This document shows, in pieces, positions 3,439-48,310 of a stretch of 64,000 nucleotides of DNA. The first letter of the stretch is position 1. Every line of letters starts with the position of its first letter. Made by a program: the position numbers and the translations under genes. The notes beneath the pieces are model-generated. The model had not been told where the DNA came from, did no database searches, and saw nothing but the letters and a program-made list of their open reading frames with translations. Origin of the DNA: Rhodothermales bacterium (GTDB lineage Bacteria > Bacteroidota > Rhodothermia > Rhodothermales > Bin80). Location: positions 124,001 through 188,000 of the forward strand of contig CATQHT010000002.1 of NCBI GenBank assembly GCA_958296045.1. The letters run 5' to 3'.

Positions 3439-4872
3439 TTATGGGAATATGCCCAGTTGCGTGTAGCCCGTGGCGATCTTGTCTATGGCACTGACAAATG
3501 CCCCCGTGCGCAGGTCTGTGTCATGTAGCTGGGCGAACTCGTGGATCTCATGGTAGGCGCCAACCATAGTGTCCTCAAGCCCTGAATTAACAAGGTCCTT
3601 CTCGCTGGCACCAAACGCGAGGTCGGTCATGATCTGGCTGGGCATGGCGTCAGGCGTGCCCAAACGCTGATCCACCAGCGATTCGACCACCTGCAGGATG
3701 CGGCGCGCATTATGCGCCTCAAAACGACGGTTCATGCGCCCGTGACGCACATGCGACAGGTTGCGCAACCACTCGAAATAAGAAACCGTTACGCCACCGG
3801 CATTCATATATAAGTCCGGGATGATCATGATGCCCCGCTGGTTCAGGATGCGGTCCGCACTTGCGGTCACTGGCCCGTTGGCGGCTTCAGCCACGATCTT
3901 GGCATGGATGCGGCCGGCATTGTCATCGCGGATCTGCCCTTCCAGTGCCGCGGGAATCAGCACGTCGCACGGCAGTTCAAGCGCGTCAGCGGATCGGGCG
4001 AGATTCTTCGCGCCAGGAAAATCCAGGATCGAGCCGGTGCTGCTGCGGTGCTCCACCACATCCTCCAGATGCAGACCGTCAGGGTTCTGGATGGCGCCCT
4101 CGTACTCGGCCAGCCCTACAATCCGGGCGCCAGCCTCTACCATGAACTTGGCGGCATGGTAGCCCACGTTGCCAAGTCCCTGGATCACTATGGTCTTGCC
4201 TTCCAACCCTTTGGGCAAGCCCAGTGAACGCATATCGCTCTCCACTTCGCAGGCTTCCCGAATGCCAAAAAAGACGCCACGGCCTGTAGCCTCCACCCGG
4301 CCCCGGACCCCGCCGTGACCGACAGGCTTGCCCGTAACACACGCCAGCGCATCCAGTGGGTTGTCTGTTACGGAGGTGTATGTGTCCATAATCCACGTCA
4401 TCTCCTGTGCACCCGTCCCGTAGTCTGGTGCCGGGACATCGACGCCAGGCCCGATAAAGTTCTTGCGTGCCAGCTCAAAGGTGTAGCGGCGAGTGATGCG
4501 CTCCAGCTCCCGCTTGGAATACTGCCGCCGATCAATAGCAATGCCGCCCTTAGCACCGCCAAATGGCACATCCACGATGGCACACTTATACGTCATCAGT
4601 GCCGCTAGCGCCATCACTTCGTCCGCGTCAACCACCGCCGCGTAACGAATGCCTCCCTTGGTGGGCTGCTTATGGTGACTGTGCTCGGCCCGATAGGCAC
4701 GGATAACTTCGATCTCGCCGTTATCACGCACGATAGGGAAACCCATCTGGTAGACGCTGTTGCAGCTCTTGATCTGCTGCAACAGTCCTTCTGGATGTGA
4801 AGTGAATACCGCGGCTCGGTCAAACATGGTGTTGACCTGATCGAAGAATGACGGCTGACCCGTTGTGCTCAT
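3439..4872 (-). CDS. gdhA: Glu/Leu/Phe/Val family dehydrogenase (glutamate dehydrogenase)
   Basis: The 477-residue protein is an amino-acid dehydrogenase that interconverts glutamate with 2-oxoglutarate and ammonia using NAD(P). The substrate-binding segment KGGIRY, the lysine motif FGGAKGGI, the conserved [12 protein letters not shown] and the Rossmann motif IQGLGNVG are all present. The chosen start is ATG at 4872 ([10 protein letters not shown]); the open frame runs 40 codons further upstream but would crowd the divergent antiporter gene and matches nothing expected. GDH is the best specific guess, but leucine or other specificity cannot be excluded from sequence alone. Confidence 0.9.
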
Positions 4873-4980
4873 GGACTCATCCGATAAACGTGAATAGAAA
4901 GACAAAGGTACGAAACCCAGGCACCCGTCGTATATTGCGCGCGCACCCGGCTGGTACCGTAGCAGATAGGTATTGAAGTA

Positions 4981-7320
4981 GTGGAAGAGCAAATCCTTGC
5001 AAATATCGTCTTAGTCATCGTGCTGGGCATTGGAGCCCAGTGGTTGGCGTGGCGCATCAGGATTCCGTCGATCCTGCTGCTTCTGCTCCTAGGGTTTCTT
5101 GCTGGCCCCATCACCGGCATCATCGCGCCGTCGACGCTGCACGGAGAGTGGCTTTTCGCGTTTGTGTCGCTGGCGATTGGCGTGATCCTCTTCGAAGGCG
5201 GCCTTAGCCTTCAGATCAGCGAGCTCAAAGAAGTCGGGCGATCGGTCCGCAACCTGATAACAACAGGAGTGCTGATCACCGGAGCGCTGGCCGGCTTTCT
5301 TGCATGGTGGGTTATTGGCATGTCGCCCGAGGTTGCCATCCTGACCGGAGGCATCCTGACCGTGACCGGGCCCACCGTGGTGATTCCGCTGCTGCGCCAT
5401 GTGCGGCCCAAGGGCCGGGTGAGCACCATCGCCAAATGGGAAGGCATCACCATCGATCCGGTGGGTGCCATTTTGGCGGTCCTGCTTCTGGAGCTGGTGC
5501 TCGCGGTCGGCAGTGCGACCCAGCTGACGGCCCAAGAGACAAACCTGGTGCCAGCATTCATGGCCGCCGCAGAGAGCCTCCTAATCGTGGTGGTGCTCAG
5601 CGTAGGCGTTAGCATCCTTGGTGCGGCACTGCAGGTTATTGTACTTCGAAACCATCTGGTTCCCGACTACCTGCAGGATCCGGCGGCGCTCAGCATTGTG
5701 CTGGCTTCGTTCGCGGCGGCGTACTCGCTAGGGGGCGAAGGGGCAGCACTGCTCACCACCACGCTGATGGGCATCATCCTAGCCAACCAGCCGTGGGTGT
5801 CGGTGCGCCAGATCGTTAAGTTCAAAGAAGATCTGCAGGTGCTGCTTCTGGCCTGCCTATTCATCCTGCTCAGTGCCCGCCTGGAGCTGAGCGTGCTGGA
5901 GTTTGTCGACCAACACGCTTTTATCTACCTAGCTATCCTGATATTGCTGGTGCGTCCGGTAGCGGTGCTGCTCAGCTCCCTGGGGACGGGGCTTAACTGG
6001 CGGGAAAAAGTGTTCATGTCGTGGCTGGCGCCACGCGGCATCGTGGCCGCCGCAGTGGCTGCCCTGTTTGCCGAAAGGCTGGTGGCCGAAGGATATGCGG
6101 GGGCCGCCGGTGACCAGCTTATTGCGATCGTGTACTTGGTTGTAGTGGGGACCGTAGCCGTTTACGGGCTGACGCTTTCTCCGCTGGCGCTCCGCCTGGG
6201 TCTGGCAGACCGGAACCCTCAAGGCATCCTGTTTATGGGGGCTTACCAGTGGGTCCAGGATGTGGCCCTCGCGCTGCGGGAGCTGGGGTTCAGGGTGCTG
6301 CTTATCGATGCCAATGCGCACAACATAGAACAGGCGCGCAGCCGGAAGCTCCCGGCCGTGGTCGCAGACGCTTTGTCGGAGACGGTCACCGACGACCTGG
6401 ACCTAGGCGGCCTCAAGCGTTTTCTGGCGGTCACAGGCAATGACGAAATCAACTCGCTGGCGGCATTGCACTTCACCGAGGTCTTCGAGAAAAAGGAGGT
6501 GTACCAGATCAGGGTAGGCGGCAACGCCGCGGTCACCCAGGTCCGACGCGTGGAACACCTGCGCGGGCGTCCGCTCTTCGGCGATGCCATCACGCAGCTT
6601 TCACTCACGCGCCGTCACCAGGAAGGGGGCGCCGTGTGCACCTTCGGACTGACCGACAAGCAATCATACCAAGCGATCCAAAAGCGCTTCAACGAAAACG
6701 TGGTGCTGCTGTTTGTCGTTCGGGGCGCCAACCTGCTCGTCAATGCGGAGGCCAGTCAGGTAACCCCGCTACCGGGCGACACGGTGGTGGTGATGCTTCC
6801 GCCGGTGACCCGGCTGAAGCTTGCGCCTGGAGCATTGCTTTCTGCCGCTCTGTTGGCACAGGCTGACGTCATAGAGGCAGACGATGCCGCGGCGATGGAC
6901 GACCTTTTGCGCCAGGCGGGCAGGAAGCTGGGTGCGCGCCTCGCTGTAGCGGAAGACACGGTACAGGCGGAGCTCGAGCATCGTGTCCGTAGCGTAGGCG
7001 TGGCCGACGCGGTCGGCAGCGCGCTCGTGCTGCACTTGAGCATTGAAACTGATCGGCCTGCGGCCCTGCTGATGATAAGGAGCCGACGCGGCCTGGCGCT
7101 GACGGCCTCTGGAGCCAAAGAGGTGTTGGTGGTGCACGCCCTCATCGTGGTGGCGACTCCCACGGGACAGGGTCCAGGCGCCAGCCTGCCGCTGAAAGCT
7201 CAGATCGCTGGCATCATCCGGCGGCAGTCCTTTGGCGACGACTGGCTGTCAGCCAAGACGCCGGACGGGCTGCGCAGCGCGCTGGCACCTGACCATGCCA
7301 TAGATGCCAGCGCTACTTAG
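4981..7320 (+). CDS. CPA-type sodium/proton antiporter with C-terminal RCK-like domain
   Basis: The 779-residue membrane protein has about 12 hydrophobic helices in its first 420 residues (from [15 protein letters not shown] onward), the pattern of monovalent cation:proton antiporters. From about residue 420 a soluble nucleotide-binding-like domain follows ([19 protein letters not shown], then LIDANAHN and [15 protein letters not shown]), as in TrkA-N/RCK regulated transporters. The start is a GTG 108 bp from the divergent dehydrogenase start, so the two may share a promoter region. Its stop overlaps the stop of the convergent terC-like gene by 8 bases. The ion specificity is not readable. 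Confidence 0.88.
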
Positions 7321-10863: not shown

Positions 10864-12669
10864 ATGCGGGTGGTACTTGCACTGATGCTGGCGGCTTATT
10901 GGGTGGGGCCATGGTCGGCTCAAGCGCAGCCTAAGTACGAGTTTCGGGGCGCCTGGATCGCGACGGTGGCCAACCTGGATTGGCCATACCGATTTGATGC
11001 GCCAGCCACGCAGCGGGCGAACCTGTTGGCGATGCTGGACAAGCTCAAGGCTGCAGGCATCAACGCGGTGTTTTTTCAGGTGCGCTCGGAGGCCGACGCG
11101 CTGTATGATTCGCCTTTGGAGCCTTGGTCATACTGGCTGACCGGTCGCCAGGGCCAGGCTCCCGACCCGAGCTATGATCCCTTGGCGTTTGCCATCAGGG
11201 AGGCACACCAGCGTGGGATGGAGCTGCATGCCTGGTTCAATCCGTACCGTGTGCGTGGCAGCTATTCCTATGACCGGGATTCGATACATGTGTCCAAGAC
11301 GCGCCCCGAGCTGTTGTATACTGCGGGGCCGCTGACCCTTATGGATCCCGGCAAGGAGGCCGGGCGCGACTATATCACGTCGGTGATTATGGATGTGGCG
11401 CGCCGCTACGATGTGGATGGGATCCACTTTGATGACTATTTCTATCCGTACCCGCCAAACCATATCACGAACCAGGACACGGCCACGTTCAATAGTGAGA
11501 GCCGTGGCTTTACCAGCCTGGGTGACTGGCGGCGCGACAACGTGAATCTCCTGGTGGCCCAGGTGGCCGACAGCCTGCGTGCCTATGATCGGCTAATCAG
11601 GTGGGGTATCAGCCCTTTTGGCATCTACAAGAACAACGTGCCGGAGGGAATCATCGGCCTGGATGCCTACAACGTGATATATGCGGATCCGCTGGCGTGG
11701 CTGCAGGCCGGAACGGTGGACTATATCGTGCCGCAGCTGTATTGGCCCATTGGCGGCGACCAGGACTACCATGCGCTGGCCCGGTGGTGGGTGGAGCAGC
11801 TCAACGGTCAGCATCTGTACATCGGTCACGGACTGTATCGGGCGGACCCAAACACGTTTGCAGGGACGCTGTTTTCGGCAGAGGAGATCCCGAACCAGAT
11901 CTATTTCAACCGCGGCTATCTGGATATCCTGGGCAGCGTGTTTTTTCGCGCCAAGAACGTGACCGAATACTATTCGCAAGGCATCGTTGACCGGCTGCAA
12001 TCGGAATTCTATCGGTATCCGGCTTTGACGCCTCCGATGCCGGGCAAGGATCAGGCTGCACCGGGCGCGCCCCAACATCTGTCGTATTCGTGGACCGCGG
12101 ACACGGAGTTGTCGCTTACATGGTCTCCGCCGGATTCCACCAGTCCGCGCCGTTATGCGGTCTACCGGGTAAGGTCTCCAGTGCAGCCGGACTTGGATCA
12201 GGCCAGTGAGGATCCCACCAACCTTCTGGCGGTGACGGGCGACACCACACTTATCGACTATCCTGGCGAGGCGCCCTATCCCTACTACTATTTTGTACGC
12301 AGCGTAAGTCGCAATTCTGTAGAGAGCGAGGCACCGATGCCGGTGATGGTGTATGGCCGTGCTACCACGGTGCACCACATGGGCCCCAGAAGGGCTGTCC
12401 ACCTACGTAGCTATCCCAACCCGTTCGCCGAGGCTACGCACATCACGTTTGGGCTTGAGGTCAGCACGGAAGTGACGCTAAGCGTTTACAACGCTCTTGG
12501 TGCACGGGTGCGCACATTGATTGACCGACGCATGCTGAATGCTGGCTCCTACCGTTACGTGTGGGATGGCGCCAGCGATCGTGGAGGCCGCCTTGCCAGT
12601 GGGGCGTACTTTGTACTGCTGAGCACAGGCGCAGAGCGCGTGGTACAGCCTGCGGTGCTGGTGCGGTAA
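10864..12669 (+). CDS. Secreted GHL10 (DUF187) glycoside-hydrolase-like protein with C-terminal sorting domain
   Basis: A good ribosome site (GGAGG, about 7 bases before the ATG) supports this start. After a signal peptide (to about AQAQP) comes the GHL10 barrel: GAWIATVANLDWP, then DGIHFDDYFYPYP and GIYKNNVPEG. A fibronectin-type III-like region follows (about residues 400-490), then a type IX-style sorting domain beginning SYPNPFAEATHITF and continuing YNALGARVRTL. The likely role is binding or cleaving a cell-wall or other glycan outside the cell; the substrate is unknown. The stop codon lies inside the 8-bp duplication made by the IS66-ended element inserted next to it. Confidence 0.9.
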   Translation: MRVVLALMLAAYWVGPWSAQAQPKYEFRGAWIATVANLDWPYRFDAPATQRANLLAMLDKLKAAGINAVFFQVRSEADALYDSPLEPWSYWLTGRQGQAPDPSYDPLAFAIREAHQRGMELHAWFNPYRVRGSYSYDRDSIHVSKTRPELLYTAGPLTLMDPGKEAGRDYITSVIMDVARRYDVDGIHFDDYFYPYPPNHITNQDTATFNSESRGFTSLGDWRRDNVNLLVAQVADSLRAYDRLIRWGISPFGIYKNNVPEGIIGLDAYNVIYADPLAWLQAGTVDYIVPQLYWPIGGDQDYHALARWWVEQLNGQHLYIGHGLYRADPNTFAGTLFSAEEIPNQIYFNRGYLDILGSVFFRAKNVTEYYSQGIVDRLQSEFYRYPALTPPMPGKDQAAPGAPQHLSYSWTADTELSLTWSPPDSTSPRRYAVYRVRSPVQPDLDQASEDPTNLLAVTGDTTLIDYPGEAPYPYYYFVRSVSRNSVESEAPMPVMVYGRATTVHHMGPRRAVHLRSYPNPFAEATHITFGLEVSTEVTLSVYNALGARVRTLIDRRMLNAGSYRYVWDGASDRGGRLASGAYFVLLSTGAERVVQPAVLVR

Positions 12670-12673
12670 GGAG
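12666..12673. repeat. Left target-site duplication of IS66-ended element
   Basis: GTAAGGAG occurs here and again at 18410-18417, immediately outside the terminal repeats. Eight bases is the duplication length known for the IS66 family. It contains the TAA stop of the GHL10 gene. Confidence 0.9.
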
Positions 12674-12762
12674 GTATCCGTGCGAAAGTCTGCATCTTGA
12701 CTGGGTGATTTTGTTGCCCGACCTTGTCGGAGTTTCTTTCCACCAATCTGGGAGGTCGTTTT

Positions 12763-13083
12763 ATGGCAACGAGAGTCAGGGGCACCTCGGAAGTGATGTT
12801 TCCGTTGGTCGCCTGCTATTAGCGTGGTAGTAAGGGTCCGGACGCATTTTGCCAGGAGCATGGCCTATCGCGTAATCAGCTGACCTATTGGCGCCGGAAG
12901 TATGCGGCATCTTCGTCTGGGTCGGAGGTCGGCGCGTTTGTGGAGGTACCGTCGCCGCAGGCGCGTGAGCGGGTTTTAATGGAGGTCGAGTTTCCAGGCG
13001 GCACACGTCTACGCCTGTTCACGCCGGTATCGGCGGATTTTCTCGGGTCTGTGCTGCAACGTGTGCGGAGCCCATCATGTTAG
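12763..13083 (+). pseudogene. tnpA: IS66 TnpA (OrfA), interrupted by a stop codon
   Basis: The frame reads MATRVRGTSEV..., hits TAG at 12820-12822, then continues in the same frame through AFCQEHGLSRNQLTYWRRKY, the typical IS66 OrfA helix-turn-helix, to a stop at 13081-13083. The second, inverted copy at 18106-18294 carries the sense version of this region (ARYLRGTQRAGAFCQEHG), confirming that the TAG is a nonsense mutation. The 3' end overlaps tnpB by 7 bases. Confidence 0.8.
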
Positions 13084-13424
13084 CGCTGGGGCCGTCGCAC
13101 CGGTTTCATTATTACCGGGAGCCTACGGACATGCGCAAGGGTTTTGACGGGTTGTGCGGTCTGGTGCGCTCGGGCATGAAGCGTGATCCTCTCTCGGGCG
13201 ATGTGTTCGTTTTCATCAACCGCCGTCGGACCCATGCAAAATTCTTGGTGTGGGATCGGAGCGGTTGGGTCGTGTACTACAAGCGTCTCGAGTCGGGTAC
13301 GTTCGAGCTTCCTTGCAGTGGCACTCCAGATTGGGCGCAGATCGTTTGCCTTCTGGAGGGTGTGGCGCTGAATTCTGTTCGTTATCGTCGGCGTTACTCA
13401 CGGCTGGCAGTGTCGCAGGGATGA
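13077..13424 (+). CDS. tnpB: IS66-family TnpB accessory protein
   Basis: The 115-residue protein shows the IS66 Orf2 signature: YREPTDMRKGFDGLCGLV, then GDVFVFINRRRTHAKFLVWD and a C-terminal YYKRLESGTFELP. The family is required with TnpA and TnpC for IS66 transposition, although its biochemical role is poorly defined. The frame is intact. Confidence 0.9.
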   Translation: MLALGPSHRFHYYREPTDMRKGFDGLCGLVRSGMKRDPLSGDVFVFINRRRTHAKFLVWDRSGWVVYYKRLESGTFELPCSGTPDWAQIVCLLEGVALNSVRYRRRYSRLAVSQG

Positions 13425-13477
13425 AATTTATTTTCGTGTGGTATCTATTATGGGGAATTGTGTGCTTAGAGGGTGGT

Positions 13478-15244
13478 ATGAACCCTATGGCCGCACACAA
13501 GCCTCCTATCGTGCTTTCTTCGGCCCCGGCTGGGGACTCGGCGTCGATCATCGCTTCCCTGGAGGCGAGGGAAATGGAGGAGCGCTGCGGGAGGTTGAAG
13601 GCAGAGGCGAGGGAGATGGAGGAGCGCCGCGGGAGGTTGAAGGCAGAGGCGGAGGTTGGACGGTTGCGTCACGAAAACAGCAGCGTTTGCAAGGAGAGGG
13701 ACGGCTACCGTGACCGTCTGAACTGAGTCAAGGCTGAACGCGATGCCCTTCTGAACTTGGTCCACGGTGCGAAGAATGAGCGCTTTGTGCCCAACGATGG
13801 GGCGGGCCCCGAGGAGAACTCCTTGTTTTCCGATGACGACGAGCCGTCGCCAGAGGTCGAGCCGTCGCCAGATACGGACAAGGCGCGCCCTGAGGCCTCG
13901 AAGCGCAAAGCGGTTTCGCAGAAACCGAAGCGGACACGCCGCCGCCTTCAAGCCGGTTTTCCGCCCCACCTTGAGCGCGACATGGCCGTCCTCGAGCCCG
14001 AGGAAGATGTCTCGGGCATGAAGCGCATAGGCTTTGTAGATAAAGAGACGCTACATGTAGTGCATCTTAAGGTGATCGTCAAAGTGCTCAGGCGGTACAA
14101 GTACGCTCGTAGTGAGACGACGGATGGTAATGGCGAGCGTTCGGACGAGGATGACGGTCCGAGCCCCATCGTCATCGCGCCGTTACCGCCCCGCCTGAGC
14201 GAGAAATGTATGGCTGAGCCAAGCCTGCTCGCTCATGTAACCGCCGCTAAGTACCTGGATCACCTTCCTCTCTACCGCCAGCGAAAACAGTTCTTACGGC
14301 AACAACTCCCGATTTCCAGCTCGACCCTGGGTGACTGGATCGGCCTGGTAGCATTCCACTTGGGGGCCCTCTATGATGCGCTCAAGAAAGAGGCCCTCCA
14401 GAGCGGCTACCTATGCGTGGACGAGACCACCATTGCGGTGCAAGATCGTAGCAAGGTCGGGGCACATCACCGTGGGTATTTCTGGGTGCACCGTGCACCG
14501 GAGCTCGGACTCGTGTGGATGGAGTATCGTAAGGGCCGTGACCAGCAAGGGCTGATCCACTCTTTGCAGACCTTCGGGGGTCACATTCAGTGCGATGGCC
14601 TCGCAGCCTACAACGCTCTTGGCCGCAATCCGAACATCGTTTTACACGGATGCTGGGCCCATGCCCGACGCTATTTCGTCCGGGCGCAGCAGAGCTATTC
14701 GGAGCGGGCCGAGCATGTGCTGACGAGGATTCAGCAGTTGTACATGATTGAGCGCAGGCTGCGCGAGGCGGGTTGCACGCCAGAGGAACGCTACCAGGCG
14801 CGCCAAAAAGAGGCGATCCCCATCCTGAAAGACCTGAAGGCATGGCTTCAAGCGCACTTCGACACGCCACGCAGCGTTTGGGGCAAAGCCGTGGGCTATA
14901 CCCTGAATCAGTGGGACAAGCTGTTTCGATACACCCGCTTCGGGCGCGTTGAGATAGACAACAACCTCGTGGAAAACTCCATCCGGCCGTTGGCTCTGGG
15001 TCGCAAAAACTACATGCACGCCGGATCACACGATGCAGCCCAACGCGCAGCCGTCATCTACTCGTTGCTGGCAACCTGCAACCTGCAAGGCATAGCCGAC
15101 CCCCAAGATTGGCTCGAGGATGTGCTAACGCGCATGCCTACGCACACCGCAGATATTCGTGAGCTGCTACCCCAACAGTGGACCGAGCGTCCAAGCTCCG
15201 CGACCTCACAGGCATTGCTCCCAGCGATGCGGGCCTGCGCATAA
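13478..15244 (+). pseudogene. tnpC: IS66 transposase TnpC with in-frame stop
   Basis: The frame starts at ATG 13478 (MNPMAAHK), runs through a coiled-coil N-terminus with a 42-bp tandem duplication (EAREMEERxGRLKA twice), then meets TGA at 13724-13726 and continues in the same frame to 15244. The downstream part has the IS66 DDE core: YLCVDETTIAVQDRSK, GCWAHARRYF and NNLVENSIRPLALGRKNYMHAGS. An alternative start after the stop (13757) would give 495 residues lacking the N-terminus, so partial activity is possible, but nonsense inactivation is simpler. Confidence 0.8.
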
Positions 15245-15440
15245 GCCCTCTGCGCCACTGCTGAGCGCCACTTCTGCACTGCCGCGCGCAGGCATCCAAG
15301 CGCTTGCGCCTGCCGACCGCTAGCATTCCCGCAGCCCCCGTCGGCCCGCTCCAGCAGCGGCTTGAGCCCAGTAACCCCAGCAAGGGGCGCCGCCAACCAG
15401 ATGCGCCCAGCATGTGCCGACGACGATTCGACTACGGTAC

Positions 15441-15894
15441 GGGATCGAACGCAGGCTACGCGAGGCGGGCTGCACGCCGACCGACCGCTATAAGGCGCGT
15501 CAAAGAGAAGCGGTCCCCATCCCTGGAAGACCTGAAGGCATCGCTTCAAGAACACATCAACGCGCAACTGGCATCTACGCGCTGCTAGAAACCTCCAACA
15601 CTTAGATGCCCAAGACAGGCTCGAAGATGTGGTAGCGCGCGTGCCCACACCTACCACAGCACTACGCGAGCCGCTCCCCCAGCGGCAGACCTACCTTGAA
15701 ACTTCCGCGACCCCACAGACACCGCTCCCACCAGGGCGTGCCTGCGCATAAGACCCGCTGTGCCACTCCCAAGCGCGAGACATGCACCGCACTGCGCAGG
15801 CGCCCAAGCACCCTGCGCATGCCTACCGCTACCATCCCCGCAGCGCCCATCGGTCCGCTCCAGCAGCGGCCCTAGCACAGTAACCCCAGCAAGA
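15441..15894 (+). repeat. Degenerate tandem copy of the tnpC 3' region
   Basis: This stretch repeats 14744-15385 with divergence and internal deletions. ERRLREAGCTP appears in both, followed later by LEDV(L/V)xRxPT and finally by a shared non-coding tail ending CAGTAACCCCAGCAAG (near 15384 and 15893). It lies between the tnpC stop and the right end of the left IS66 copy at 16024 and has no intact reading frame. Confidence 0.7.
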
Positions 15895-16024
15895 TGTGCC
15901 GCTCAAAAGCACGCGCCACCGTGCATTCCATGGCCTGAAGGCAAACACGACGGCGAAACATAGTCCTCGGCACGCTACCAGTCAGCTGAAATATCCCCGA
16001 AAAACCGGATTTTCGGACGGATAC

Positions 16025-16530
16025 TTTCCAACTGCAAACATTGCGCGTCAATCTGCCGACCCGGTCACTCGCTACGTCTCCCTATTCACCCTTCTCCATA
16101 TGGCCTTGACCGCTTCCACCAGGCACCGAGCATCCAGCCCGTGTGCCCAGATCAAGACCCCGGTCACGGATGACTCGATTGGCCTCTGAGCCCCACTTTT
16201 TCCCTGAAAGGGCCTTGCTTAAATGGTAGGAAGTCCCCCCCCCCCGAGTGCTGCGTGGCGCGCTCCATGTTCGGGGTGAGCATCGCATGATATGTATGTT
16301 TAGTGGCAGCAGGGCCGCTTCGTGCGCTCGGAGGGTGCGCTCTACTTGGAAGAGGCTGCGGGGAACTATCCTTCCCATGCTAGGTGTAACCGTTCCGCAC
16401 ACAGCGACTCCAGTGGTACTACGGTCGAGTGGTTTGCGCCCGGGGCTGGTGATTGACTGATAAGTAGTGTTATGAGCCAGGATCCTGATCGAGTCCTGAA
16501 CATCAACCACCTACAGAGTAAAGATTGACT
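16025..16530. other. Non-coding cargo leader with an 11-C run
   Basis: No convincing gene is seen between the inner IS66 end and the cargo gene. A run of 11 C occurs at 16235-16245, about 285 bp before the cargo start. It may be incidental or part of a length-variable leader. Confidence 0.4.
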
Positions 16531-17415
16531 ATGGCTGAACTTGCAACAAGCCCTGCGGGGCAGATAGGTACAAGAGTCGATCCCAGGATATCAGGCGGCG
16601 ATTCCGAGATGGGGCAGATCAGGTTGCAGATCGCGAAGCTGTCAGGGCGGGTGACGGAGGTTAGAGTCGCCATTCTGGCCGAGATTTCGCAGGTTGCGGC
16701 CCAGCAGAATGCTAAGACTAGCAAGTTGGAGTCCAAGGTTGACGCCAGTGTGTCCGAGTTGAAGGGCATGATTGGCGCGTTGGAATCCAAGGTTGACGTC
16801 ATTGTATCCGAGTTGAAGGGCATGATTGGCGCGTTGGAATCCAAGGTTGACGTCATTGTATCCGAGTTGAAGGGCATGATTGGCGCGTTGGAGTCCAAGG
16901 TTGACGCCGGCGCGTCCGAGTTGAAGGGCATGATCGGCCAGTTGGAGTCCAAGGTTGATGCCAGGTTTAGTAAGTTGGACTCCAAGGTTGATGCCAGTGT
17001 GTCCGAGTTGAAGGGCATGATCGGCCAGTTGGACTCCAAGGTTGATGCCAGGTTTAGTAAGTTGGACTCCAAGGTTGATGCCAGTGTGTCCGAGTTGAAG
17101 GGCATGATCGGCCAGTTGGAGTCCAAGGTTGATGCCAGGTTTAGTAAGTTGGACTCCAAGGTTGACGCCAGTGTGTCCGAGTTGAAGGGGATGATTGGTA
17201 GGTCGGACTCCAAGCGTGACGCCAGTGTGTCCGAGTTGAAGGGGATGATTGGTAGGTCGGACTCCAAGCGTGACGCCAGTGTGTCCGAGTTGAAGGGCAT
17301 GATCGGCGCGTTGGAAAAGCAGAACAGATCCATGAAATGGTACATCGGGACCGCTGTCGGCATAGGCATCCTGCTCGTAGCGCTGTCCCAGTATATTGTG
17401 GCGTTAGCGGTGTAG
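16531..17415 (+). CDS. Cargo gene: repetitive coiled-coil protein with C-terminal membrane anchor
   Basis: The 294-residue protein has a short N-terminal region, then about 12 tandem units of 18 residues (VDASVSELKGMIGALESK) or 11 residues (VDARFSKLDSK), and ends with one hydrophobic helix (MKWYIGTAVGIGILLVALSQ). Eleven- and eighteen-residue periods both fit continuous coiled coils. The DNA of the units is nearly identical, so the array has expanded recently. The first ATG after an upstream TTG is taken as start. It is not a transposition protein, so it is the passenger of the IS66 composite. Function unknown; a tail-anchored rod-like protein is all that can be said. Confidence 0.75.
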   Translation: MAELATSPAGQIGTRVDPRISGGDSEMGQIRLQIAKLSGRVTEVRVAILAEISQVAAQQNAKTSKLESKVDASVSELKGMIGALESKVDVIVSELKGMIGALESKVDVIVSELKGMIGALESKVDAGASELKGMIGQLESKVDARFSKLDSKVDASVSELKGMIGQLDSKVDARFSKLDSKVDASVSELKGMIGQLESKVDARFSKLDSKVDASVSELKGMIGRSDSKRDASVSELKGMIGRSDSKRDASVSELKGMIGALEKQNRSMKWYIGTAVGIGILLVALSQYIVALAV

Positions 17416-18105
17416 GCGAACGGCTGCGTCGGCATGGCAATGCCGGTATTGCCATGGTTACAACGGGGCTGTGTGTCGGTCTCCGTGTCGCAGATGAGCC
17501 TCCGCCAAAATGTTATCCTTGTTCCAGCTGCGCGGTATCATCTCGAAGCTTCCCGCCGCACGCCCGACTGAAGCGAAAGATTGTCTTAGGGATCGGCGCG
17601 AAGATGTCCCTGCTAATCGGCCTGATCGGTTCCAAAACGGAGCGCCTGCTGTATGCGATCAACGGTGACGAGTAGGCCCTCTACATCACAATGACGATGG
17701 GCGCCACCGTGGGGGTGCTTGACGTACGAGATCTCCTTGCTGTACAAGGTCGGCCTGGCGAGTCAGGATCAGCAACCTCCCCGGTGCCCCCGGTGGCCAG
17801 CCCATACTTGCGCGAGACGCCGTGGCGTTAAGCAAAGACAGGTGGCTGTTTGCCAGCCACCTCGATGAAGCCGTTCGCGAATCGGCCTGCTCCGATCCAC
17901 ATTGATGAGACTGCCAAGCGCAATCATTGAACAGCAGCGCGGGTACATTCAAGTGGCGTCATGAGATGCACCTCGTCAGAGGTGCCGTCCCGAAGGACGG
18001 TGAAGAAGCCGGCTGAGCATGGCTTTCAGCCACCAACGCCTTGGACCCTGAAAGCCTCGTACGTCACGATGGAGCCATCACACCCATATGGAAACTGCAA
18101 CGCCA
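17416..18105. other. Decayed region between cargo gene and inverted IS66 remnant
   Basis: Only short unrelated frames occur here and none matches a family I recognise. It is probably degraded IS66 sequence belonging to the right-hand, inverted copy, because a tnpA fragment follows directly. Confidence 0.4.
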
Positions 18106-18294
18106 TCAATGCTCCCCGTCCCGCCGAACAGGGGAAGGAACCTCCACAAGCGAGTCACCCACCACCCCAAATGAAGATGCCGCGTACGTGCGGCGCCAGT
18201 AAGGCAGCTGACTACGCGTCATGCCATGCTCCTGGCAAAATGCCCCCGCACGCTGCGTACCACGCAAATAGCGCGCGATCCACGGAACCTTCAC
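18106..18294 (-). pseudogene. tnpA: IS66 TnpA fragment, inverted copy
   Basis: The minus-strand frame gives ARYLRGTQRAGAFCQEHG and SQLPYWRRTYAASS, clearly homologous to the tnpA at 12763-13083, and stops early after VEVPSPVRRDGEH. It reads away from the terminal repeat at 18409, so this end is the tnpA-side end of a second IS66 copy placed in inverse orientation. Confidence 0.75.
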
Positions 18295-18409
18295 TTCTGT
18301 GCCCTAACTTCCGATGCTATCCCTCGACCCCACGGTTTGATCAATAGAACCTCCCAAAAGGTCGGGCAATAATACTACCTGTCCAATATCCAGACTTTCG
18401 GACGGATAC

Positions 18410-18417
18410 GTAAGGAG
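18410..18417. repeat. Right target-site duplication of IS66-ended element
   Basis: GTAAGGAG, identical to 12666-12673. Removing 12674-18417 would rejoin the GHL10 gene with its native downstream sequence. Confidence 0.9.
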
Positions 18418-18750
18418 CAAGGCCTGCTGCCCGGTGATGGGCGGCAGATTGAGTGTGGGTGTTTACGGGCCTTTCCGCGGGGAAGAGACCCGCTTACCCA
18501 AACGTGGAAGGAACACCAACGCGATGCGCAGCAGCTGAAGCAGCGGCGCGACCAAGCTGTCGGCATGGTGTTGGAGCGGACACCGGAGCATCAGTATCTG
18601 GAGGTAACAAGAGAGGCGCACGAGCGCAGCATTGAAAGCGGAATCCTGGATATGGTGAACTACCGCGTGCACCAGGAACGCATGGGTGAGCAAGATCTGG
18701 GGTTGTAGGGCGCGTCTCTCGTATCTTGTACTGGCGTATATTCCTGCGGT
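18418..18750 (+). other. Unrecognised gene fragment
   Basis: From about 18470 a plus-strand frame free of stops ends at 18708 (…SGILDMVNYRVHQERMGEQDLGL). It is rich in charged residues, has no start codon at its beginning and matches no family I know. It may be the 3' end of a lost gene that lay downstream of the GHL10 gene. Confidence 0.25.
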
Positions 18751-19254
18751 ATGCTGCCTTCTGTTTATCTGGAAACCAGCGTGGTCAGCTATCTGGTGGC
18801 ACGTCCTTCCCGCGACTTGGTTGTCGCGGGACGTCGAGAAGTTACGCGTGAATGGTGGCGTATGGCGGCGCAACAGTACACGCTGGTGGCATCGGATTTG
18901 GTAGTGAAGGAAGTTGGATAGGGCAATTTGCATAGAGCACGTGCCCGCATGGCAGTGTTGAATAGTGTTATGTTGCTCGACACCACGGCAGCGGTGATAG
19001 CGTTGGTTGATGAACTGCTGATTCAAGGTGCATTGCCACGCAAGGCAGCCGCCGATGCGGCCCAAACGCCACCGCCGGGGTCAATCGTACGGATTATCTG
19101 GTGACGTGGAACTTCAAGCATATTGCGAATCCGGTGCAACTTCCCAGGATTAATCGCATATGTCGTGCGTTGAACCACGGGCCGGTGGTGATCTGTACAT
19201 CGGCTGCATTAATGGAGGTACCCTATGAACAACCCCCCAGAGGACCCGATTTTG
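18751..19254 (+). pseudogene. PIN-domain (VapC-like) toxin, broken by frameshifts
   Basis: The first frame gives MLPSVYLETSVVSYLVARPS and REWW, the start of a PIN ribonuclease domain with its first acidic residue. It stops after VASDLVVKEVG. A second frame continues ARARMAVLNSVMLLDTTAAV…LPRKAAADA, and a third gives DYLVTWNFKHIANPV followed by VVICTSAALMEVPYE up to a TGA at about 19254. In order these are the conserved blocks of one PIN protein, so at least two frameshifts have killed it. Its end overlaps the small downstream partner gene. Confidence 0.7.
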
Positions 19255-48229: not shown

Positions 48230-48310
48230 GGCCCGGATTGGTGGATGGAGCCTCCGACAAAGTCGCGCGCCAAATTTACCCAGTCAAGATGCAGGCTCTC
48301 GGACGGATAC
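48230..48310 (-). repeat. Solo IS66 end remnant
   Basis: Read on the minus strand from 48310, the sequence begins GTATCCGTCCGAGAGCCTGC and continues ATCTTGACTGGGT and TTTGTCGGAG, matching the first 80 bp of the IS66 element at 12674 (GTATCCGTGCGAAAGTCTGC, ATCTTGACTGGGT, CTTGTCGGAG). No transposition genes are attached. Confidence 0.75.

Follow-up and report, generated by a model that had tools for sequence, protein, structure and literature searches.

A probable IS66-type composite transposon carrying a coiled-coil gene in a Rhodothermales bacterium

IS66-family members such as ISPpa5a and ISPpa7 have 8-bp repeats, according to PMC3281130. Elements of this family that carry passenger genes have already been described under the name tIS66. 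A 2026 paper (PMC12888890) counts passengers in 7 of the 25 Pseudomonas IS66 members in ISfinder, which runs against the initial annotation's view that such passengers are uncommon. The same paper lists the fosZ resistance gene as carried by IS66-family elements, for example in ISPa75-fosZ, and notes that ISPa75 has a far end similar to the left ends found on other members of the family.

The locus described here lies in a 64,000-nucleotide stretch of Rhodothermales DNA (the window), bases 124001-188000 of contig 2 in a genome of 4.78 Mb and four contigs, and comprises a 5736-bp unit at positions 12674-18409. The unit has inverted IS66 left-type ends; immediately beyond each of them is the 8-bp sequence GTAAGGAG, an exact duplication. 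Judged from its sequence, it is very probably a composite transposon of IS66 type, in which 5.7 kb were carried by the outermost left-type ends with transposase supplied by IS66.

Structure of the unit and its full-length IS66 copy

The features of the unit and its borders are as follows.

12666-12673, no strand: left copy of the target duplication GTAAGGAG; the upstream gene (10864-12669) has its stop codon within it and is undisrupted
12674-16024, plus strand: full-length IS66, 3351 bp, with TTTCCAAC as its right flank; other copies in the genome match it at ~99% identity
12763-13083, plus strand: tnpA, with an in-frame TAG at 12820-12822 that is absent from six other copies
13077-13424, plus strand: tnpB, intact, 115 aa
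13478-15244, plus strand: tnpC (DDE transposase), with an in-frame TGA at 13724-13726 that is absent from six other copies
15405-15902, plus strand: degenerate second copy of the 3' part of tnpC, belonging to this IS; every full-length copy has it, placed after tnpC and before the right end
16025-16245, no strand: right-end fragment of an IS110-family element (221 of 2474 bp, 98%)
16246-18090, plus strand: putatively captured chromosomal segment of ~1.85 kb with the coiled-coil gene, with copies on contigs 1 and 3
16531-17415, plus strand: gene for a membrane-anchored coiled-coil rod protein of 294 aa, with 18- and 11-residue repeats and a C-terminal hydrophobic helix
18090-18409, minus strand: inverted remnant of the left end of an IS66 from another subfamily, with 74% identity to the full-length IS66 of the unit and 79-84% to other copies, outer end intact
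18410-18417, no strand: right copy of the target duplication GTAAGGAG

The initial annotation had proposed that inverted IS66 ends and an 8-bp duplication bracket 5.7 kb that include one inverted IS66 remnant. Its coordinates are exact, with GTAAGGAG on both flanks, and the remnant is the left-end piece at 18090-18409. The unit begins at 12674 with GTATCCGTGCGAAAGTC and ends at 18409 with TTTCGGACGGATAC; the ninth base of its left end carries a C-to-G change. Complementarity between the two inverted arms, at 12674-12956 and 18131-18409, is 71-78%. Within the unit, the full IS66 has GTAAGGAG on its left and TTTCCAAC on its right, and thus is not itself flanked by a target duplication. A duplication around the whole 5736 bp and none around the inner IS66, together with outer ends that both derive from IS elements and are inverted relative to each other, make up the arrangement of a composite transposon.

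Six other copies (~99% identical) align with 12674-16024 and stop at the same base, and the inner right end at 16024 looks intact. The initial annotation had called this IS66 nearly complete. In length it is complete, but two nonsense codons disable it. Among the seven copies these codons in tnpA and tnpC are peculiar to the one in the window, which hence lacks an intact gene set, a feature that bears on activity and not on kinship. The open tnpC frame left after the TGA encodes 495 aa and starts with the TTG at 13757. Pfam matches to PF03050 and PF05717 assign TnpB and TnpC to the IS66 family, as do NCBIfam scores of 347.5 bits for TnpC (NF033517, cut-off 180) and 94.1 bits for TnpB (NF033819, cut-off 50).

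All three genes are open in four of the six other copies (L071, L072, L073 and L076), the exceptions being one copy with an altered tnpB frame and one that carries inserts. Four of the six are flanked by identical 8-mers at the same two ends, as IS66 ends with a target duplication should be. The elements at L071 3194-6522 and L075 3629-6937 are of intact length, with 8-bp flanks that do not match; they may have been rearranged at one end, indicating that ends can lose the duplication by other routes. The window copy and five of the six others, the sixth being excluded from the alignment because of its inserts, show pairwise identities of 98.8-99.1% in a star-like pattern, which suggests a recent IS66 burst.

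Other observations concern the surroundings of the unit. An isolated remnant of an IS66 left end, 79 bp long, lies at 48232-48310 and shares 82% identity with the IS66 copy at 12674-16024. To the right of the unit, the translation of 18753-19000 suggests a candidate PIN-domain toxin that follows a small antitoxin-like gene. A known structured RNA was rejected as a candidate, since positions 12000-19000 gave no Rfam match at gathering score.

Proposed origin of the composite

The 2474-bp parent of the IS110-family fragment was seen twice on contig 3, and its gene encodes an IS110-family transposase. The initial annotation's account of the unit's content was incomplete in that it overlooked this end at 16025-16245. 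Right-end fragments of the same element also occur at L121 2943-3341 and L008 6389-6753, where they measure 365-400 bp (221 bp in the window), and the last 30-50 bp of this right end match five relatives as well.

The copy on contig 1 is 94.7% identical over 16025-18410 and contains the IS110 piece, the segment and the inverted IS66 remnant, without a full IS66. Its IS110 fragment is 365 bp long and runs uninterrupted across the TTTCCAAC site. This copy looks like the state before IS66 arrival. As it shows, the IS110-family fragment, the coiled-coil gene segment and the inverted IS66 remnant already adjoined one another in the lineage. A recently multiplying IS66 would have entered the IS110 fragment at TTTCCAAC, and its transposase would have used the outermost left-type ends (12674 and 18409), bypassing the inner right end at 16024. 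The 5.7 kb would have been delivered to the site after the gene at 10864-12669, generating the GTAAGGAG duplication. Transposase may have come from the window copy before it acquired its nonsense codons or from other intact copies. Outer-pair transposition after IS66 entry is the simplest reading. The initial annotation's proposal of a composite unit with IS66 ends that moved as one piece gains support from the purely outer duplication and from the control of 832 end pairs described below.

A search for a donor locus in which the IS110 fragment contains a full IS66 found none, and we therefore infer the order of events. The C-to-G change in the left end and the two full-length copies without matching flanks also count against this reading. 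The best matches of the upstream gene in named genomes are in Rhodothermales MAGs, at 72% and 69% identity (L170 and L171). As for an empty site, neither of these two closest relatives with the upstream gene shares the right flank, and none of 80 loci with that gene matched it.

Contig 3 contains a second IS66 composite of 15,234 bp (C3:1263119-1278352; L077 2120-17353) with CGTGCAAC on both sides. It has the same architecture as the window unit, being formed by two inverted IS66 copies with outward left-type ends and identical 4435-bp arms, and its interior holds a piece of an ISL3 transposase and an 828-aa protein without a Pfam match. This layout shows that, in this genome, a duplication can lie outside two paired left-type ends. 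Separately, one element with a 453-aa transposase occupies an identical position at the 3' end of tnpB in L074 (~4390-6100) and in both arms of L077. Its recurrence there in two different IS66 subfamilies suggests that the element has a preferred target site inside IS66.

An alternative history begins with the earlier landing of an older composite that had an IS66 remnant at each end. Later, a younger IS66 would have inserted into the inner IS110 fragment, and recombination between it and the old left end would have removed the sequence in between, so that the present 5.7 kb never moved as such. The final structure would be the same, including TTTCCAAC on one side only, and the outer ends do come from different IS66 subfamilies. 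This history nevertheless appears unlikely: it requires an extra recombination step, and over 287 bp the left end of the window unit is 98-99% like the other young copies, without any apparent change to the older subfamily.

The chromosomal segment and its coiled-coil gene

On the preferred reading, in which IS66 moved the unit by its outer ends, the segment at 16246-18090 is cargo. The copy of this segment on contig 3 is 74% identical and lies between genes for cysteine synthase and Lon protease (lon), neighbours named by reading their translations, with no IS66 end. We interpret the coiled-coil gene as captured resident DNA and not a dedicated IS66 passenger, because the contig-1 copy lacks a full IS66 and the contig-3 copy lacks an IS66 end. 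The segment occurs in none of the 58 relatives searched, a set that includes no other genome of the host's genus. Phages gave no match for 16246-18090, and plasmids gave five records with short IS66 gene matches only.

The 294-aa protein begins with 65 N-terminal residues, continues with the 18- and 11-residue repeats and ends in a hydrophobic C-terminus (Kyte-Doolittle 2.34 over 19 residues), in agreement with the repetitive rod and single C-terminal membrane helix described in the initial annotation. It has a periodicity of 3.62 residues per turn, a phase that units of 18 and of 11 residues alike preserve. The three paralogues have these unit lengths in common and differ in the order and number of units. 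Across 16729-17300 of the window and the paralogues in L008 and L009, repeat units look as if they had been gained, lost and swapped with the helical phase kept.

Several Pfam coiled-coil families score above their cut-offs for the window protein, the CCDC90-like family included. For the latter (PF07798), the protein reaches 44.4 bits against a gathering score of 33.5, with other coiled-coil families also scoring, and the contig-3 paralogue falls below at 30.8 bits. The AlphaFold model is a single long helix over residues 24-259 (mean pLDDT 72.1, pTM 0.28); in this low-pTM model, residues 1-23 lack confident structure, and the model says nothing about function. Matches to the protein in the genomes of 13 of the 58 relatives are at most 40% identical and have the appearance of generic coiled coil, and a scan of named genomes for the gene returned 45 pattern matches, none of them confirmed. 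Presumably the protein is a tail-anchored helical rod that belongs to the host and does not contribute to transposition, and the biology of the passenger itself looks ordinary.

Over 121 codons, dN/dS is 0.42 between the window and contig 1 (12 changes) and 0.55 and 0.60 for the other pairs. In the last 29 codons it is 0.87 against contig 3, and the window and contig 1 are without change there. Selection on the gene thus seems weakly purifying at best.

It is very unlikely that the gene is a dedicated passenger that aids the element or the host, as in tIS66. In favour of it, an IS66 end adjoins two of the gene's three copies, and the dN/dS values of 0.42-0.60, drawn from few changes, are below 1. 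These points are outweighed by the contig-3 copy without an IS66 end, the absence of the gene from all six other full-length IS66 copies, the ~675 bp of the block without a recognised gene, and the absence of the segment from every one of the 58 relatives. A constant IS66 passenger is accordingly rejected on the first two of these points, which also leave the initial annotation's assignment of the gene to IS66 without support, the contig-3 paralogue being 64% identical. The initial annotation had named as a refutation the same gene at a fixed chromosomal place without IS66 ends in relatives. The contig-3 paralogue comes close to this case, but it belongs to the same genome and not to a relative.

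End-pair control and comparison with known systems

A 17-base pattern with up to two mismatches found 58 IS66-type ends in the genome, ends with more than two mismatches being uncounted. All left and right combinations of these ends were compared (32 x 26 = 832 pairs). Identical 8-bp flanks occurred in 6 of the 832, each of them a pair of neighbouring ends. Four of these pairs bound single IS66 copies, one of which carries inserts; the other two belong to the window unit and to the 15,234-bp unit on contig 3. None of the non-neighbouring pairs among the 832 had an exact 8-mer match; for example, GCCTCGCG, the flank of one end in the control, equals none of the left-end flanks listed. IS66 pieces are very abundant in this genome (71 TnpC matches and the 58 ends), yet a coincidental 8-mer match between neighbouring IS66 insertions or deletions that arose independently, with no joint movement, is largely refuted by this control and by a random expectation of ~1 in 65,000 at exact positions, and has almost no probability left.

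The composite transposon itself is of an ordinary kind; the order of steps is unusually readable here. The locus offers a step-by-step view of how IS66 may mobilise adjacent host DNA with a stray related end, its own right end being skipped. Such a route of gene uptake has practical relevance, as the family is known to carry fosZ (PMC12888890). It is possible, though on balance doubtful, that the window unit represents a tIS66 precursor, in which a host gene was gained through the left end of a second IS66 as the new far end, with the old right end still inside. If so, once the inner end and the IS110 scrap were lost, the result would be a passenger-carrying IS66 like ISPa75, and the 15.2-kb composite on contig 3 would represent a parallel example.

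CCDC90-like proteins, for which PF07798 also bears the name DUF1640, have a globular head domain before the stalk. The window protein may resemble them in its coiled-coil stalk and C-terminal membrane helix, and it scores above the gathering cut-off. In contrast, its match spans the stalk only, the contig-3 paralogue stays below the cut-off, and the score may reflect coil composition.

The IS66 copy in the window shares with its family the tnpA-tnpB-tnpC order, the TnpB and TnpC matches, related terminal repeats and an 8-bp duplication, and differs in its tnpA and tnpC nonsense codons and the degenerate duplicate of the tnpC tail. Like the tIS66 element ISPa75-fosZ (PMC12888890), the unit has, downstream of tnpC, a chromosomal gene that was putatively captured, and its far end resembles another IS66's left end, as is reported for ISPa75. 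Unlike in ISPa75-fosZ, the right end of the window IS66 is retained inside the unit at 16024, and the element is separated from the gene by an IS110 fragment. A tIS66 has a single left and a single right end around the tnp genes and the passenger, without an additional end inside; because the inner end is kept here, the unit is not classed as a tIS66. The unit resembles the composite transposon Tn6097 (PMC3281130) in having host DNA between IS-derived outer ends and a duplication outside them. It differs from Tn6097 in that its IS belongs to the IS66 family and one side is merely a 320-bp remnant of another subfamily.
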